Virus record (IMG/VR): IMGVR_UViG_3300008448_000194
Location: 1-42,495 of that record
From: a virus
DNA: 42,495 nt
Reading direction: 5' to 3' (one strand)
Part shown: in pieces, positions 5,549 to 39,400 of the stretch
Layout: each line of letters starts with the position of its first letter
Position numbering within the stretch: position 1 is the first letter of the stretch
Notes under the pieces: generated by a model
Told to the model about the DNA's origin: nothing
Database searches by the model: none
The model's input: the letters and a program-made list of their open reading frames with translations, nothing else
Made by a program: the position numbers and the translations under genes

Positions 5549-7297
5549 ATGCCCAAACTAAAAGAACAAGCCCCTTCTAAGCCCGTAGAAACGCGACTTA
5601 CGGAATCGTTTCCCCTCTTTCTTTCTTTGGTATGGAAATCGCTCGACCTGCCTTCTCCAACCAGAGCACAACTGGCCATAGCTCAATACCTTCAAAATGG
5701 ACCCAAACGACTCCAAATCCAAGCCTTTCGGGGACTCGGTAAATCCTGGATCGCTGCTGCCTTCGTTTTGTGGACGCTATGGAACGACCGTGATAAGAAG
5801 ATCCTTGTTATTTCTGCGTCTAAACAAAGAGCTGATGACTTTACTATCTTCTGTCAAAAATGTATCCTTGAGTTTGATTGGTTGGCTCATCTTCGCCCTG
5901 TGGACGATGACCAACGGTGGTCCCGAGTTTCGTTTGATGTTGCCGGTTGTCGTCCGGCTCAAGCGCCATCAGTTAAAAGTGTCGGCATCACCGGTCAAAT
6001 TACGGGCAGCCGAGCCGATCTTATCGTATTCGATGACGTTGAGGTTCCCGCTAACTCTGCTACCGACTTCATGCGTGAAAAGCTATTGCAGTTGGTTACT
6101 GAGGGTGAATCCGTACTCACACCGAAAAGCGATTCTCGTATTGTGTTTCTCGGCACGCCACAAACTACTTTCACGATTTATCGTACGCTTCGAGAAAGAA
6201 ACTACCGACCGTTTGTCTGGCCAGCAAGATACCCCAAAGACCTGACCGGATACGAGGATGTATTGGCTCCACAACTCGTAAAGGACATTTCCAAAGAGGG
6301 ACACGACACCCTGCGCTGGCAACCCACAGACACACGGTTCTCGGAGATTAACCTTCTTGAACGTGAACAAAGTATGTCTCGGAGCAACTTCATGCTCCAG
6401 TTCATGCTTGATACTAGCCTAAGTGATGCGCTTAAGTTTCCTCTTAAACTCAGCGACTTTTCAGTATTATCTCTTGATTTGGAAAAGGGTCCAAGCGACT
6501 TGGTATGGGGAGCCGATAAAGAAACTCTGCTTGACCTTCCTGCTGTCGCTCTCCCTGGGGATAGATGGCACCGGCCTAAGGTTGTTTCGGAATTTGTCCC
6601 ATACGGGGAAACTATTATATCCGTTGATCCGTCCGGACGAGGAAAAGACGAAACCGTTGCTGTAGTTTTGTCACAGATCAATGGCTTCCTGTTTGTCAGG
6701 GACATCTTCGCAACACAAGACGGGTACTCTGACACAACCCTTCGAGAGATCTTACGCAGAGCAAAGAAGTTCAAGGCTGGGATGTGCCTAATTGAATCCA
6801 ACTTCGGTGACGGTGCCGTGATGGAACTCATGAAAAAGCACGCGCAGGAGATGAAGGTTGGGCTTGCCTTTGAGGAGGTACGAGCTACGACCCGAAAGGA
6901 GGATCGCATTATTGACACACTGGAACCTGTCCTTAACCAGCACCGCCTCATTGTGGATCAGCGCCTTATCGAGTGGGACTATCGTAGCAATTCCGACATG
7001 GCCCCAGAGGAACGCCTTCCCCGGATGCTTATGTACCAACTCACCCGTATGTGTCGTGAGAAGGGGGCCGTTAAACACGACGACCGTGTGGACGCCCTTG
7101 CTCTTGGGGTTAAGTACTTTCAGGATGTCCTCGCTATCTCCGCTAAACAGGCGCAGGTTGAGCAAAAAAGGATGGAATGGAATCGCATGATGACCGCCTT
7201 TATGGAGACACCACAAGAGGCCACAGATTGCCTTGTGCTTGGAAAGTCCTTTGAAAATATCCAAGGTGGTCAAAACTCCGTTCATTACTGGGTTTAA
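5549..7297 (+). CDS. terL: Terminase large subunit (DNA packaging motor)
   Basis: The start at MPKLKEQAPS gives 582 residues, close to the 586 of T7 gp19; the longer frame would begin inside the RlpA-like gene. The ATPase domain shows a Walker A-like FRGLGKS (K65) and a Walker B LIVFDDVE (about residues 158-165). The RNase H-like nuclease domain shows IISVDPSGRGKDE (D360), CLIESNFGDG (about E416) and VKHDDRVDALALG. The protein should cut concatemeric DNA and pump it into proheads through the portal. A hairpin precedes it, and a long non-coding segment follows. Confidence 0.95.
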   Translation: MPKLKEQAPSKPVETRLTESFPLFLSLVWKSLDLPSPTRAQLAIAQYLQNGPKRLQIQAFRGLGKSWIAAAFVLWTLWNDRDKKILVISASKQRADDFTIFCQKCILEFDWLAHLRPVDDDQRWSRVSFDVAGCRPAQAPSVKSVGITGQITGSRADLIVFDDVEVPANSATDFMREKLLQLVTEGESVLTPKSDSRIVFLGTPQTTFTIYRTLRERNYRPFVWPARYPKDLTGYEDVLAPQLVKDISKEGHDTLRWQPTDTRFSEINLLEREQSMSRSNFMLQFMLDTSLSDALKFPLKLSDFSVLSLDLEKGPSDLVWGADKETLLDLPAVALPGDRWHRPKVVSEFVPYGETIISVDPSGRGKDETVAVVLSQINGFLFVRDIFATQDGYSDTTLREILRRAKKFKAGMCLIESNFGDGAVMELMKKHAQEMKVGLAFEEVRATTRKEDRIIDTLEPVLNQHRLIVDQRLIEWDYRSNSDMAPEERLPRMLMYQLTRMCREKGAVKHDDRVDALALGVKYFQDVLAISAKQAQVEQKRMEWNRMMTAFMETPQEATDCLVLGKSFENIQGGQNSVHYWV

Positions 7298-7820
7298 GGC
7301 GGGTAACACACTACCCGAAATAGAAGGTGCTCTGTAGAACCAGAAGAGTGGTGCCTTCTGGTGTGGAACAGCGGTAAAGAAGAGGGGAGACCGACCCAAT
7401 GCGTTTCCTCTCTTCCCCCATATTGTTTCATTGTCTTTCCCAATACACATTGCACCAACATATTCAAGCTCACGGCCAGACCCAGACAGGTCAGTCAAGC
7501 GAGAAGGAAGTTGGGAAAGACACATACATACATAGCAAGACACAGAGTAATTCCACTTGGTTTCTGTTGAGCGAACGACCGACTGCTTGGAGTGACTACC
7601 AAGCCCTTCCCCTGTTTTGGGGCCGACACGGGAAGGAATACGACACACGCAGAGGGGGGCCGGGGCCTTTACTAGCTATAGTTAGCGGAAGACCGAAGGT
7701 CTGTAGCGTTAGCCTGTTCGTGTGTTTAGACACAGAGAGAAGACACCGTAGTCGAAGACGGAGGTGTTTGTTTGTGTAAAAGACACAGCCACAGGCCGAC
7801 TATAACTAGCTATTGTTTCT
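7298..7820 (+). ncRNA. Hairpin-dense non-coding segment, candidate structured RNA
   Basis: No credible gene fits in these 523 bases, but the + strand has many stems. They are 7300-7305/7312-7317 (CGGGTA); 7339-7346/7355-7362 (ACCAGAAG); 7380-7388/7406-7414 (AAGAGGGGA, one G-U); 7585-7590/7599-7604 (GCTTGG); 7605-7611/7630-7636 (CCTTCCC); 7690-7694/7698-7702 (AGACC, GAA loop); 7721-7725/7730-7734 (TGTGT); 7743-7747/7763-7767 (ACACC); 7773-7777/7783-7787 (TGTGT). AGACACA recurs at 7518, 7538, 7729 and 7781. AGAAGG (7323-7328) can also pair with CCTTCT (7354-7359), competing with the second stem. I see no group I or group II intron core. It could be a structured phage RNA, a leader for the GIY-YIG/ThyX operon, or a packaging-end region. 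Confidence 0.4.
7671..7813 (+). repeat. Nine-base direct repeats bracketing four hairpins
   Basis: ACTAGCTAT occurs at 7671-7679 and again at 7805-7813. Between the copies lie four consecutive short hairpins, two with GAA loops closed by C-G. The second copy ends eight bases before the GIY-YIG start codon. The repeat could reflect an inserted element or a repeated protein or polymerase binding site. Confidence 0.5.
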
Positions 7821-8135
7821 ATGTCTTCTTGTATTTATGTTTTAGAGTTAGAACATAACAAGTATTATGTTGGTATCTCTATACAGCCTAAGCACCGTGT
7901 TCAACAACATTTAGATGGTTTTGGTTCTTCTTGGACTAAGTTCTATAAACCTACTGGCAAGTATAGAATTATTAGGCCTGGTGAAAATCCGTATGGGTTA
8001 AAAGAAGTAACTGAAAGCACTGTAACCTACCACTTGATGGTAAAATTAGGTTACGAAAATGTAAGGGGGTCTGGGTGGACAGCTCATGATCTTTCAAAAC
8101 CGCCACAACCACCAAAAAACTACGCACTGTTATGA
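7821..8135 (+). CDS. GIY-YIG endonuclease, free-standing
   Basis: The 104-residue protein has the GIY-YIG hallmark near its start (CIYVLELEHNKYYVGIS), then KHRVQQHLDGFGSSWTKFYK with the conserved arginine, and a C-terminal YENVRGSGW segment. Such single-domain nucleases are typical free-standing homing endonucleases of phages. Its DNA is visibly more AT-rich than terL or thyX, suggesting recent arrival. The stop overlaps the thyX start as ATGA. It lies directly after a structured non-coding segment, a combination that elsewhere can mean an intron, though no intron core is visible here. Confidence 0.8.
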   Translation: MSSCIYVLELEHNKYYVGISIQPKHRVQQHLDGFGSSWTKFYKPTGKYRIIRPGENPYGLKEVTESTVTYHLMVKLGYENVRGSGWTAHDLSKPPQPPKNYALL

Positions 8136-9125: not shown

Positions 9126-9403
9126 GACACACATTTAAGAAGTCCTTACGCATGTTGTGGCGGCCCCAGCACCCCCCATGCCGGGGTCAACAGGTAACAC
9201 GTGCGCGTGCGCGTTTATTGTTTGCCACCTAGGGTAACTAGAGCAGGCCACTACTGGGTTTTGTATGCATGTAACGCGTATGCGGGCGCGTGTGATCGGG
9301 CGTGCGTGGGCGTGCGCTAGTACGCGTGTTCTTGTTTTATAAAAAAATCTGTTCGATTAGCCTAGCTTATCAGTCTGATAAAAAACGCTTATAGCACAGG
9401 GGG
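9117..9403 (+). other. Non-coding region with GCGTG repeats and AT-rich tract
   Basis: No gene is visible. There is an alternating GTGCGCGTGCGCG run at 9204-9213, five GCGTG copies (9288, 9300, 9304, 9310, 9324), then an AT-rich stretch TTTTATAAAAAAAT (about 9335-9348). Repeats beside an easily melted tract resemble replication origins. A region between terL and the early promoter is also where T7-like genomes have their physical ends and terminal repeats. ACCTAGGG occurs at 9227-9234 and again inside the early promoter at 9407-9414. A TTGACA at 9124-9129 has no convincing -10 partner. Confidence 0.4.
9367..9381. promoter_or_regulatory. Operator-like palindrome upstream of early promoter
   Basis: TTATCAG-T-CTGATAA is a perfect 15-bp inverted repeat 22 bp upstream of the early -35 box, followed by a short A-tract (9380-9385). 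It could bind a dimeric regulator, or the A-tract could act as an UP element. No matching repressor gene is seen, so a host protein is possible. Confidence 0.4.
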
Positions 9404-13033: not shown

Positions 13034-13301
13034 TGATTACGACGATCTCCTGTATACCCTCCAGCACATGGCTGTTGATCGGTGTACGGATCTTGTAGGC
13101 AGGTGCAATGCACACGCTGACATCCTTGATCCGGACCTTGATGGTGATGATGCCGGAAGGTTACTCAATGCCCAGCTTGGGTTGGATGGGTCAGAGGATG
13201 AGATCGACATGACTCAGAACCTGATTTCCATCATCAGCAACATCATCGTCATTCGACGAGCAAGGCACAACATCCACGCATCCATTCAAACTGAGGATTG
13301 A
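13008..13301 (+). CDS. Acidic protein just upstream of RNA polymerase (97 aa)
   Basis: The ATG at MPFPIPNSDDYDD is chosen over an earlier in-frame ATG that overlaps more of the previous gene. The 97-residue protein is highly acidic (DADILDPDLDGDDAG-like stretch, then GSEDEIDMTQ), with a hydrophobic helix NLISIISNIIVIRRA near the end. No family is recognised. Its stop overlaps the RNA polymerase ATG as TGATG, suggesting coupled translation. Confidence 0.55.
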   Translation: MPFPIPNSDDYDDLLYTLQHMAVDRCTDLVGRCNAHADILDPDLDGDDAGRLLNAQLGLDGSEDEIDMTQNLISIISNIIVIRRARHNIHASIQTED

Positions 13302-15637
13302 TGGCAACAAGAGAGCAACTCGCCAGACAGTATCAGCGGGAACTCAGTGCTCGCACCGAGGCCATTAACAGACTTAGAGAACGTACCCGTGTTGCGGAGG
13401 AACGCACCTATGCCAGCTCTACCGTTTATGGGAATGCGTTTATCAAGGCTGGTCTTCAAAAGATTACCGAAGAGATCAGCAGCAAGCTTCACCGCATCAG
13501 TCAAGGATGGGCTACTGAAAAGGCGGAGGCAGTCATTCCAATCAAGAGCTGTGATCCGGCAATCCTTGCCTTGATTACGGCAAAGGGTGTATTGGATGTT
13601 CTTGGTGTTAGGAGAATTGAGAAGCCAACATATGCCTACGTGACCACTCACATTGGCAGGCTGGTTTATGACCAGATGATGTTGGATCAATTTGAAGCAA
13701 CCCATCCAGAGCTGTTTGCCAAGGCCAAGCTCACCATCCACGCCCACAAAGGCTACCTCTACAAGGTTCAACGGTTTCGGGCAGCCATGCGGAAGGTGGA
13801 CTACTCACCAGATCGCTGGTCTCCTGCTGTTCGGCACCTTGTTGGAGGGTGGTTGGTTGATTGCCTTGCTAGGTCCACGGGATGGGTAGCCTCCAGGACC
13901 GCCTCTAAGGGCGGTAAACAGGAGATCACGGTACTCACCTACTCAACCGAGTTCCTCAAGGCCAAGGAGGCGCTTCTAGAGCAGGCTGAGGGCTTTGCTG
14001 CTTGCCTGTGGCCCATGCTGTGTGAGCCAAACGACTGGTCTGATGTCAGTAATGGGGGGTATCTGACCAACGAGCTGAGGCGACTCAATAAGCTTGTCAG
14101 GACACGCTCTCCAAGAAGGTGCTCTGTAGAACGGGGAAGCGCGGCACTAGCCATGCTGAACCGACTCCAGAAGGTGCCATACCGGATCAACCCTGAGATC
14201 CTGGACATCGCCAACTTCTGCATGGAACGCCGCCTTACGGTGGGTAAGTTCCGAGCTGAGGAACCAACACCTCCTCCGCCAAAGCCAGAGCCTTGGGAGA
14301 CTGCTTCCGAGGAAGACAAGATTGCTTATCGACGGGCTCGTACTGAGATCGAAGATAACAACTCGGCACTGGCGCAGAAGAACTACCGAACGACTGAGTG
14401 TTTGTTTGTTGCAAACAAGTACAAAGATGACACGTTCTGGATTCCCTGGTCATTTGATTTCCGGGGAAGGGTCTATCCAATTCCCACAAGCCTCAGCCCT
14501 CAAGGTACTGACTTTGAGAAGAGTCTTATTTATTTTCAAGAGGAAGGCCCAGTCAATGACTGGTGGTTAGGATTTCAAGTAGCTACTACTTGGGGTCTTG
14601 ATAAAGCTCCTATGGAGGAGAGGATAACTTGGGCAAAGGAGAACCATGACTTCATTGGGATGATTGCTTCTGATCCAAAAGGAACAATCTCTACATGGTC
14701 AGGTGCTGAAGAGCCTTGGTGTTTTCTTGCTTCTGCTATTGAGTATTACCACTGTGTCATTACTAAAACAAAACAAACCTCTGGTCTTCCTGTGTCTGTT
14801 GATGCCACTTGCTCTGGTCTCCAACACCTATCAGCATTGGCGCTTGACAGAACCGCAGCGGAGATGGTCAACGTTGTCCCCACACCGAGACCGTCAGACG
14901 GGTATGCCATTGTTGCCGAGAAAGCAAAGGAACAACTTCCTGAGCACCTTCATCCGATCATTACTCGGAAGGTAACAAAACGAACCGTGATGACCACCCC
15001 TTATGGGGTTACTGAGAACTCGGCCAGAGATTACATTCGTCAGGAGCTTAAGGGTATTGAACTTCAACCAGGAGAACTACAAGCAATCGTCAAAGCAGTT
15101 TACCGTTATGCGGTTAAACAGGTCTTTGCTGGTCCTTGTAACTCCATGGAGTTCATCCAAAAGACTGCTGGTGAAGTAATTAAATCTGGCCGTACTCATC
15201 TTGAGTGGGTCACACCTTCTGGATTTCCTGTCGTTCAAGAATACAGACGGAATGATTGTGAACGGGTCAACACCAAGCTTCTTGGTCAACGCGTTCAGAC
15301 TCATCTCCTGAAGCCCTTCGATGAACGACAGATAGACCTATCCAAGGCCAGAACTGCGTCTAGTCCGAACCTTGTTCACAGCCTAGATGCAGCTCTTCTT
15401 CATCTTGTCTTTGCTGAATGGGAACAACCCTTCACGGTTATCCATGACTGTGTGTTGGGTCGATCCTGTGACATGGATCAGATGGGGAATGCGATTCGTG
15501 ACAAGTTCGTTGAGATCTATTCACAGCCTGTGCTCAAAAACTGGGCAGAGCAGCTTGGAGTTGATTTCGATGAGAGTGTCATGATCAATACACTGGACAT
15601 CAACGATGTTCAAAACTCCTCTTATTTTTTCTGCTAA
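13301..15637 (+). CDS. Single-subunit phage RNA polymerase (T7 gp1-like)
   Basis: This 778-residue polymerase should transcribe the middle and late genes from phage-specific promoters. Motif A is DFRGRVYPIP (D386, T7 D537), motif B is RKVTKRTVMTTPYG (K560, R561, M564 and Y568, matching T7 K631, R632, M635 and Y639), and motif C is IHDCVLG (D716, T7 D812; T7 has HDS). It is about 100 residues shorter than the 883-residue T7 enzyme, mainly in the N-terminal region, as in cyanophage homologues. The ATG overlaps the previous stop, and the gene is the end point of the second early operon. Confidence 0.97.
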   Translation: MATREQLARQYQRELSARTEAINRLRERTRVAEERTYASSTVYGNAFIKAGLQKITEEISSKLHRISQGWATEKAEAVIPIKSCDPAILALITAKGVLDVLGVRRIEKPTYAYVTTHIGRLVYDQMMLDQFEATHPELFAKAKLTIHAHKGYLYKVQRFRAAMRKVDYSPDRWSPAVRHLVGGWLVDCLARSTGWVASRTASKGGKQEITVLTYSTEFLKAKEALLEQAEGFAACLWPMLCEPNDWSDVSNGGYLTNELRRLNKLVRTRSPRRCSVERGSAALAMLNRLQKVPYRINPEILDIANFCMERRLTVGKFRAEEPTPPPPKPEPWETASEEDKIAYRRARTEIEDNNSALAQKNYRTTECLFVANKYKDDTFWIPWSFDFRGRVYPIPTSLSPQGTDFEKSLIYFQEEGPVNDWWLGFQVATTWGLDKAPMEERITWAKENHDFIGMIASDPKGTISTWSGAEEPWCFLASAIEYYHCVITKTKQTSGLPVSVDATCSGLQHLSALALDRTAAEMVNVVPTPRPSDGYAIVAEKAKEQLPEHLHPIITRKVTKRTVMTTPYGVTENSARDYIRQELKGIELQPGELQAIVKAVYRYAVKQVFAGPCNSMEFIQKTAGEVIKSGRTHLEWVTPSGFPVVQEYRRNDCERVNTKLLGQRVQTHLLKPFDERQIDLSKARTASSPNLVHSLDAALLHLVFAEWEQPFTVIHDCVLGRSCDMDQMGNAIRDKFVEIYSQPVLKNWAEQLGVDFDESVMINTLDINDVQNSSYFFC

Positions 15638-36446: not shown

Positions 36447-39400
36447 ATGGCTGATCTTGAAGCTTTCCGTCCAGTTGATCTTGATAAGCTGGAAGCTCTT
36501 CAAAACCAAGCATTAGACAACAAGAAAAAGCAGCAACAGCTGGAAGTTCAGGCTAAACAACGCCAACAAGCAGCCGCTGCCCAACCTCAACAAGCTCCTG
36601 CCCAACAACCCCAGCAGATCTTTCAAAGCCTGATGCCTCAGATGCAGCCAGGTCAACTTGATGCTGTTGGTAAGTACCTTGAAGAAAACGTCAACATCCC
36701 TCTTCTTGACTTCATTGATAACATCTCTGGAGATAAGAAAAGCGCAGACACTATTGCCAAGGAACGTCAACAACTGCGGACAAAACGCGGCAAGGAAACT
36801 CAGGCAATTGAAAAAGCGCTAGAACAACAAGCTTACTCCAACCCAGTGTCGGCTGCCGCTACGGAAACTATCCGTACTGGTATCGGTGCTGTTGCCAAAC
36901 CCATTGAAGGGATAGCTGATGTTGGTTACCAATGGTACCTAAACAATACTGTTAACAAAGGTAAAAAGTCTTCAGACGAAGGCTATGTTAGAGCATATAC
37001 CGAGCTAACAAAAGCACCAAAAACAGAGCTTGGCCTTGCCGGTGAAAAACTCTTAAGCTTTATTCTTCTGGCCCGTGCCCTGCGTAATGTACCTGGGGCA
37101 AAGCTTGGATCTAAACCAATTCCCGCCGATGTAAAAGGTGTTGCTCGTGTTGGAGCAAAAGCAAGCCGTTTTGTTCAGGAAGGTCTTGTTCCTGGTGCTA
37201 TTGCTGATTTCTTCCTTACGGATGCCAAAGACGGTAACATGTCGGAAGCGGTAAAGGGTCTTGTTCCTGAGGCTTATCGGGAATCTTTTATCTTTGGTCT
37301 ATCCACAGATAAGTATGGAGACCCCTTCCTTAATCGCGTTAAGAGCCTTGGAGAAGGCGCTGTAATGAACCCCATCTTCAACGGTGGTATCGATGCACTT
37401 GCCAAGGGTTATCGGGCTGCTAGGGCCGCCCTGAAGCGTGGTGCTGATCCAGATACTGCCATTAAAGAGGGTCTCGATACAGTTGCTAATGCGTCTGATG
37501 AAAACATCCAACAATCAGCCAAAAACTCCAAAGCAGAAACCGACAATACCGTTAAGGTGCGTACGGAAGAGTTGGATGAACTGGATGAGCAAGAGTTGGA
37601 GCTTAGCCGTAAACTAGCTCAAACCACCGATCCAGACGAAGTTCAACAGCTTGAGTTGGAACTTAATGATCTTAACTACAAACGAGATGATCTCTTAGAC
37701 GACATCGACAACGAGTTGGATCCTACCACCCAGAAGCTGCCGTTTGAGAACACCCGCACTATTAACGCGGAAGACATCAATAGCGTAGCCAAGAATCAAA
37801 TCAACCTTGAGGAAGGCTTCCCTGGTCTTGGCAAGGTTAGTGTTCATGGCGCTTCTGGTTCTGTTATGACGGAATCAGCCATCAAAAGTGCTGGTATTAA
37901 GGATGGTGCACGTAAGATCCTTAACCGCTACTCCAAGGACGTAGATGTTCTCCGTATTTCCAAGGAAAGCGGCATGAGTGTTGGTAAGGTTCTTGATAAC
38001 GCAGCTCGGATCTACCAAGATTTTCTTGATGGTATGCGTCCCTACGATGAGATCTTTACCGGAGATGAAGGAGATCTTGTCAAACGTCTTCTTGGTCAGT
38101 CTGGTGAACTTGTTGTTGGAACCAAACGTGGTACTCTTGGGGCTACTAATGAAACCCTGATCGCAGCTAAAGCCATCATTGCTGACTGGTCTAATGACAT
38201 CTATAAGCTGGCTCAACTGGCAGAAGATGCAGATACCAGTCAAATTGCAGGCTTTAACTTTTATGAGCGCCTGATTGATCGTTATGTTGGTTTGCTTGAG
38301 TTCTACAAGACTGGCACTCAGTTCTTTGGTGGATCTCTCAATAGCTTGAAGCTTAGCATTACTCCTAACATGGAGGCACGCGATGCTGCTCAACTTATGT
38401 CCAGCTTTGAAAGCGAAGACATTCCCGTTACCCTTGCTCGCCTTCGTAAGTTTGCTAAGGAAGCCAAGGATGCCTATCGTCGTGGTGATGCTGAGGGTCT
38501 TGAAAAGCTTCGTACCTTAACCAGGGCTATGGTGCTGTCTGGTGGTGATCCTACCAAGGCTATCAGCTTTGGACAGACTGCTCGTGACATCTGGGGTAAG
38601 GTTCAAACCCGTAACTTCTATAACTCGATTCTGTCTGGTGCCAAGACCATCTTCCGTAACGGTGGTACTGTCTATCGCCTTGTTGAAGGGCCTACTAGCA
38701 TTGCGCTTCGAGGAGCCTTTACAGGTGATGATGCTACATTGCGGGCTGGATTGGCTGGGTACAAAGCAATCATGGGCAGCGCCTCAGAAGCGTTTAAGGT
38801 GGCCAGCAGGACCATCCGTACTGGTATTCCGATTCAGGCAACGCCTAACCGGATTATGCAACAGACGGAAACGCTTGCGCAACTTCAGAACCTGGAAACC
38901 ATTGCTGAAACGGCTACCGAACAACGGATGGTTGGTTACCTGAAATTCCATTACCGCTTTGCAGAAGCCCTGGCTATTCCTGAGCGTCTAATGATGGGCA
39001 TGGATGATTACTTCAAAACCATCCTGGCGCGGCAACGGATTGATGAACTAGCAACCTATCAGGCCTATAAGGAAGATCCGACCAACTGGAAGCGTAACCT
39101 TACCACGTATCTTGACCAATACAAGAACGCCATTGACCCTAACACAGGGGTAATCAAAAGTAAGGCTATTGCTGAATATGCAGACGTGGGTACCTTCCAA
39201 AGTGATCCATGGGAAAATGCCAGTAAGCTTGCTGGATTCATCGATTCCGTTCCCCTTGGTAAGGCTCTGATTCCCTTTATTCGTACCCCCGCAAACATCA
39301 TTAGTTATCAGTTTGAACACCTGCCTTTGACTGCTCGGTTTTCTAAGAACTACCAGTCTGCTATGAAGTCGGGTGATCCACTTCTGGTTGCTGAATACGA

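Follow-up and report, generated by a model that had tools for sequence, protein, structure and literature searches.

A conserved structured RNA downstream of the terminase gene in cyanobacterial podoviruses, probably the 5' domain of a phiOR-type right-end transcript

The terL-thyX locus

The DNA analysed here, called the window throughout, is the whole of the 42,495-base virus contig recorded in IMG/VR as IMGVR_UViG_3300008448_000194. It is a T7-like cyanopodovirus that encodes a single-subunit RNA polymerase, a T7-type primase-helicase, a DNA polymerase, a portal and a capsid protein, and its TerL has 60-65% identity to the TerL of Syn5, P60, S-CBP42 and other cyanopodoviruses. The terL gene ends at 7297 and a GIY-YIG ORF starts at 7821, and these boundaries bear out the 523-nt non-coding segment that a preliminary description of this DNA had placed between the two genes. 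Mechanical ORFs of 69 and 126 aa are contained in the segment (7298-7820). A Pfam search returned nothing for the 126-aa ORF, both ORFs gave only short partial tblastn matches in relatives with no protein conservation, and no frame of the terL-thyX gap is consistently open across relatives, so that the segment can be regarded as devoid of genes. At the same position, terL and thyX are separated by some 250-750 nt of non-coding sequence in most related contigs, and alignment of these gaps revealed a highly conserved core directly after terL.

7821 to 8135, + strand: GIY-YIG homing-endonuclease-like gene (PF01541, E 7.6e-6), between the RNA described below and thyX; a neighbour and not part of the RNA
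13298 to 15637: RNA polymerase ORF (PF00940 RNA_pol, E 1.8e-78)

The GIY-YIG gene occupies the terL-thyX gap in a minority of relatives only (for example loci L005, L048 and L132) and is missing in the closest ones (L105, L130, L003); this distribution within the same gap suggests a mobile free-standing endonuclease.

Folding of the segment and comparison with RNA families

On the + strand, the 523-nt segment folds at -183.1 kcal/mol against a shuffle mean of -155.0 (sd 6.2; z -4.5), with none of 100 shuffles as good, and the hairpin density noted in the preliminary description is thus confirmed by a fold far more stable than expected. When both strands were compared, the + strand reached a z of -5.5 and the - strand a z of -1.7. 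Among the 29 gaps tested, the window included, the + strand beats its shuffles in nearly all and exceeds them by more than the - strand does in most. The heptamer AGACACA is present four times as described (7518, 7538, 7728 and 7781), with one further + strand copy elsewhere in the window.

No family of the Rfam 15 covariance models reached its gathering score in the segment, and at E up to 5 we recovered sub-threshold, chance-level matches to unrelated families, among which neither GOLLD nor ROOL appeared. Scans of the relatives likewise returned no family at the RNA locus, and a DNA similarity search with the whole segment among phage records found no match.

A probable phage RNA polymerase promoter immediately upstream of the RNA

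7322 to 7338, + strand: phage RNA polymerase promoter AGAAGGTGCTCTGTAGA, predicted phiOR equivalent, immediately 5' of the RNA; repeat shared with the polymerase gene
14114 to 14132, + strand: second copy of the promoter repeat, exact, within the RNA polymerase ORF

The first 24 nt of the segment are a spacer, followed by the promoter and by the predicted RNA start at 7339. Even when 3 mismatches are allowed, the window contains no further copy of the 19-nt exact repeat formed by 7322-7340 and 14114-14132. The same arrangement was found in all nine testable genomes (Syn5, P60, S-CBP42, 9515-10a, SS120-1, P-SSP7, the window and two further environmental contigs; a third contig was excluded for its truncated polymerase gene): 17-25 nt just 5' of the post-terL hairpin recur once more, inside the RNA polymerase gene. 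The repeat measures 20 nt in Syn5, 21 in P60, 20 in P-SSP7, 25 in S-CBP42, 21 in 9515-10a and 21 in SS120-1.

In Syn5 this repeat contains ATTGGGCACCCGTAA, the characterised promoter of the Syn5 RNA polymerase, for which +1 is the next base and of which the genome has exactly two (PMC3950665). The post-terL copy of Syn5 lies directly 5' of the hairpin that we call P1, and its +1 base, at 44812, is the first base of P1. Aligned to Syn5, transcription in the window would start at 7339, and the repeat at 7322-7338 is presumably an active promoter in the window phage, as others have demonstrated for Syn5. The cyanopodovirus polymerase appears to have just two promoters, the post-terL one apparently being one of them.

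Covariation in P1 and its conserved tail

7339 to 7362, + strand: hairpin P1, stem 7339-7346/7355-7362, loop AGUGGUGC at 7347-7354; predicted RNA 5' end at 7339
7363 to 7375, + strand: conserved tail GUGGAACAGCGGU, consensus GUGGA-n-GCGGU, drawn single-stranded; invariant or near-invariant columns in 37 sequences

P1 is an 8-bp stem with the loop N-GUGGUG-Y, in which GUGGUG is invariant, and is followed by the GUGGA-n-GCGGU tail. Across 37 distinct sequences, the six inner pairs are standard-paired in 100% of cells, and when the 3' partner was slid by 1-3 columns as a control pairing fell to 59-68%. The covariation that the preliminary description had proposed to look for in homologues is present: 75 double-changed cells were counted in the 37 sequences against a shuffled mean of 16.9, none of 500 shuffles being as high. 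Over eight pairs in 114 contexts there are 88 G-U cells and 0 C-A cells, which indicates that the functional folded form is the + strand RNA. P1 therefore shows what is expected of a structured RNA, namely covariation beyond chance on one strand, and a covariance model of P1 plus tail gave a single significant match in the window, at P1 (E 1.7e-13). In two loci, L015 (7835-7892) and L073 (7738-7798), an additional hairpin stands between P1 and the tail; these modules are thus separable.

Strong covariation, strand bias and a promoter of its own support a real conserved structured RNA, and to this extent the earlier reading of the segment as a large structured phage RNA stands; its assignment to the GOLLD or ROOL kind does not, given the lack of an Rfam 15 match and a part conserved across relatives of about 40-180 nt rather than several hundred, and neither does the packaging end offered as the main alternative, which is considered below.

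Distribution and lineage variants

Viral contigs were scanned for the core: 51 contained it under a strict pattern, and relaxing the pattern raised this to at least 120, a figure that includes chance matches. Among the loci examined, 114 of the 158 distinct relaxed-pattern contexts sit 28-112 nt past the end of the TerL match; a stem of at least 6 pairs occurs in the remaining 44 only at L154, L155, L180 and L231, the first of which derives from the same contig as the TerL locus L063. The covariance model of P1 plus tail matched 51 of the 69 TerL-matched sources at E <1e-5, with one match per source and in every case after terL; the next best match had an E of 0.35. Five of six complete phage genomes (Syn5, P60, S-CBP42, SS120-1 and 9515-10a) were matched once each, directly after terL; the model found no match in P-SSP7 or in the T7 pieces. 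The P1 motif is missing from 18 of the 69 sources, close relatives included, and is therefore not universally essential, which counts against an indispensable role.

Another lineage of cyanopodoviruses, including P-SSP7, P-SSP2, P-GSP1, S-TIP37 and others, has a different hairpin after terL, with the loop AAGGGUGGA, found in 50 of 158 loci of these lineages. Among 28 distinct sequences, a single cell of its seven inner pairs is unpaired; 16 cells are G-U and none is C-A. The place, and in P-SSP7 the promoter repeat too, is thus kept in these lineages while the type of hairpin differs. We also considered a matching pseudoknot for the AAGGGUGGA type and rejected it, TCCAC being present in just 10 of the 28 sequences.

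A further group of loci (L028, L034, L035, L038-L040, L042, L047 and L061) has a GC-rich structured gap after terL without P1; several carry a promoter-like AAGGTGC, and they have in common the hairpin series GAGGAAGCC...GGCGCCCC.AAGACCAAG.

A counterpart in cellular hosts was rejected: 84,980 cellular genomes gave 23 pattern matches, 21 without the stem and two beside a cyanophage terL. These two, L256 (binned as Crocinitomicaceae) and L259 (binned as Euryarchaeota), have a cyanophage-like terL adjoining P1 and are probably misbinned phage DNA.

Elements downstream of P1

7379 to 7415, + strand: hairpin P2, 13 bp, arms 7379-7391/7403-7415, loop beginning CGACC; a helix is present here in nearly all relatives, with different sequences
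7432 to 7522, + strand: long-range helix P3, 13 bp, arms 7432-7444/7510-7522, enclosing 65 nt
7452 to 7456, + strand: GCACC, candidate pseudoknot partner of GGUGC in the P1 loop; position conserved in most window-clade relatives
7573 to 7668, + strand: second conserved domain, a hairpin around UGUUUUGGGGCCGACA, found by blastn in close relatives only

The P2 loop, which starts with CGACC in the window, starts with CGAAC in many relatives. P3 scores 29.5 in the window against 21 for the best of 60 shuffles, and most window-clade relatives have an equivalent of 9-15 bp at the same place with unrelated sequences, as exemplified by the arms UGUCUUUCCCAAU/GUUGGGAAAGACA of the window and GUCGAUUCC/GGAAUCGAC of another clade member. 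Most members beat all or nearly all of their shuffles at P3; L009, L090, L100 and L115 do not. Within the window clade, conservation of GCACC is suggestive of a pseudoknot with the P1 loop, for which covariation cannot be seen because the loop is invariant. As a pseudoknot common to all members we rejected it, since ACCAC after P2 shows no excess (18 against 17.4 in shuffles); the shorter ACCA was counted 85 times against 47.9 in shuffles. The second domain has 73-81% blastn identity in L003, L004, L006, L007, L013, L019 and L062.

The right-end unit and the concatemer junction

9347 to 9353, + strand: ATCTGTT, predicted concatemer-junction pause signal; sole + strand copy in the window

The position of the window promoter corresponds to that of T7 phiOR, which is at 39229, just after gene 19 (ending at 39130). 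ATCTGTT is a class II termination signal that is also present at the concatemer junction (PMC11617373). It directly follows the terminal repeat in T7 (at 161, after a 160-bp repeat) and in Syn5 (at 238, after a 237-bp repeat), and in P-SSP7, whose genome ends have been mapped experimentally (PMC3350473), ACCTGTT is found at 207 after a 206-bp repeat. From its single copy of ATCTGTT at 9347, the right end of the window genome is predicted at 9346; this junction lies 1.5 kb past the segment's end, which would give the right-end unit a length of about 2.0 kb. The locus thus combines a phage-polymerase promoter that lies past terL on the late strand, the Syn5 copy of which is a known promoter, with a junction pause signal at the downstream terminal-repeat edge, this edge being predicted in the window. 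We therefore regard the locus as probably a right-end unit of the phiOR type, with the segment encoding the structured 5' domain of its transcript. The ATCTGTT edge mark may also be of use in linearising other permuted cyanopodovirus records.

The stretch 9199-9331, just before the predicted junction, contains terminator-like hairpins that have T-rich tails.

Possible functions of the RNA

Three functions can be ranked, a role at the right end coming first, followed by a stabilising leader and then by a free trans-acting RNA. The likeliest, though we propose it tentatively, is that the RNA acts at the right end and in packaging, a reading that draws on the way terL, promoter, structured RNA and junction stay coupled across genomes, and on general knowledge of T7, in which the junction pause has a role in packaging. 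The phage's own RNA polymerase would start from the promoter at 7322-7338, the RNA beginning at about 7339 with the first base of P1. Its 5' domain would comprise P1, the GUGGA-GCGGU tail, P2, P3 and possibly the P1-loop pseudoknot. The polymerase would run rightward to the concatemer junction at about 9347 and pause there, the 5' fold being tethered to it by the nascent transcript, and the tethered fold could help the terminase or replication proteins to process the right end. It is conceivable, if rather doubtful, that cyanopodoviruses use the RNA as a component of their end-processing or packaging machinery, with a 5' fold bound by the terminase, the polymerase or another phage protein.

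A structured 5' untranslated leader, in which P1 would cap the 5' end and stabilise the right-end mRNA or regulate translation (of thyX here, of talC elsewhere), is a possibility that we hold with some doubt. The promoter is directly upstream, thyX follows in most relatives, and a hairpin starting at +1 could plausibly protect the RNA from 5'-end-dependent decay. However, the downstream gene is variable and begins from about 100 nt to more than 1 kb away: a 573-aa ORF comes next in 9515-10a, hypothetical genes and talC follow the hairpin in P-SSP7, and SS120-1 has no ORF of at least 70 aa ending before its candidate junction signal. This variation argues against a leader for one gene and led us to reject the view that the RNA serves solely as a thyX riboswitch or leader; moreover, the P1 loop and the tail are conserved beyond the needs of a simple cap.

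Less likely again is a discrete RNA, non-coding and acting in trans, that would be processed or end near the structured domain and bind a phage or host protein or RNA, loosely like the phi29 packaging RNA or a decoy. The RNA has its own promoter, an invariant loop and tail and no fixed partner gene, and in 28 of 110 contexts P2 is followed by a T-rich stretch (at least 5 T in ten bases), but P2 lacks a following terminator in most contexts, that of the window among them, and no partner is known. The Syn5 polymerase did not terminate at a T7 stem-loop terminator, which also speaks against a discrete RNA; this result and the low count led us to reject P2 as a general terminator.

The remaining explanations concern the nature of the segment. 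An element acting as DNA, a cruciform or single-strand hairpin used in replication or packaging and only incidentally transcribed, would suit the proximity of the genome end but is very unlikely in view of the 88 G-U against 0 C-A cells and the fold bias to the + strand, both of which indicate RNA. A packaging end or direct terminal repeat within the segment, suggested by the nearness of terL, is more improbable still: by synteny, the terminal repeats of Syn5 and P-SSP7, whose mapped ends are more than 1 kb to the right, begin 1.1-1.2 kb rightward of the position of the post-terL hairpin (P1 in Syn5), and the window's own junction signal is predicted at 9347. Equally improbable is membership of the GOLLD/ROOL class of large ornate RNAs, or a group I intron tied to the GIY-YIG gene, to which size, hairpin density and this neighbour might point, since there is no Rfam match, intron families included, most relatives that keep the RNA lack the GIY-YIG gene, and we found neither a conserved intron core nor an interrupted exon, terL matching to its last residue and thyX from its first residues, both intact and uninterrupted.

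Comparison with known systems

Like the cyanophage unit, the phiOR/CJ arrangement of T7 has a phage-polymerase promoter just after terL that is read rightward to ATCTGTT at the edge of the terminal repeat. T7 differs in its many promoters, against two in the cyanophages, where the 5' RNA domain is conserved and covaries; no comparable hairpin is found at the +1 of T7 phiOR. In Syn5 the post-terL copy of ATTGGGCACCCGTAA adjoins the same P1 element as in the window, and the study of this phage (PMC3950665) characterises the promoter only, with no mention of a hairpin.

GOLLD and ROOL are structured RNAs often carried by phages; the window RNA differs from them in having no covariance-model match, in a far smaller conserved part and in its tie to a phage-polymerase promoter after terL. 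The phi29 packaging RNA is likewise encoded near the genome end of a short-tailed phage, and the likeness to the window RNA is an analogy of position and phage type, with no shared sequence or structure known.

In the literature searched, the coverage of which excluded most subscription papers, no description of a structured RNA at the post-terL place was found. The phiOR-type unit is thus of a known kind, and the conserved RNA that it carries appears to be undescribed. It is kept in many cyanobacterial podoviruses, the model phage Syn5 included, and is absent from Rfam. Cyanopodoviruses abound in marine and fresh waters. The RNA is presumably abundant in infection: with one of two apparent promoters devoted to the right-end unit, it could rank among the major late transcripts in infected cells, one absent from annotations and RNA databases. 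Should it prove to be part of the end-processing or packaging machinery, it would be without known precedent among the RNAs of T7-like phages. It offers a concrete handle on why T7-like phages retain a promoter beyond the terminase gene, and Syn5 is a cultured model in which the RNA could be tested directly.

The Rfam scans of the relatives also gave Glutamine-II riboswitch matches elsewhere in three related phages, near capsid or psbA genes: SS120-1 (L278, 35367-35418), 9515-10a (L275, 35862-35917) and P-SSP7 (L274, 20522-20575).
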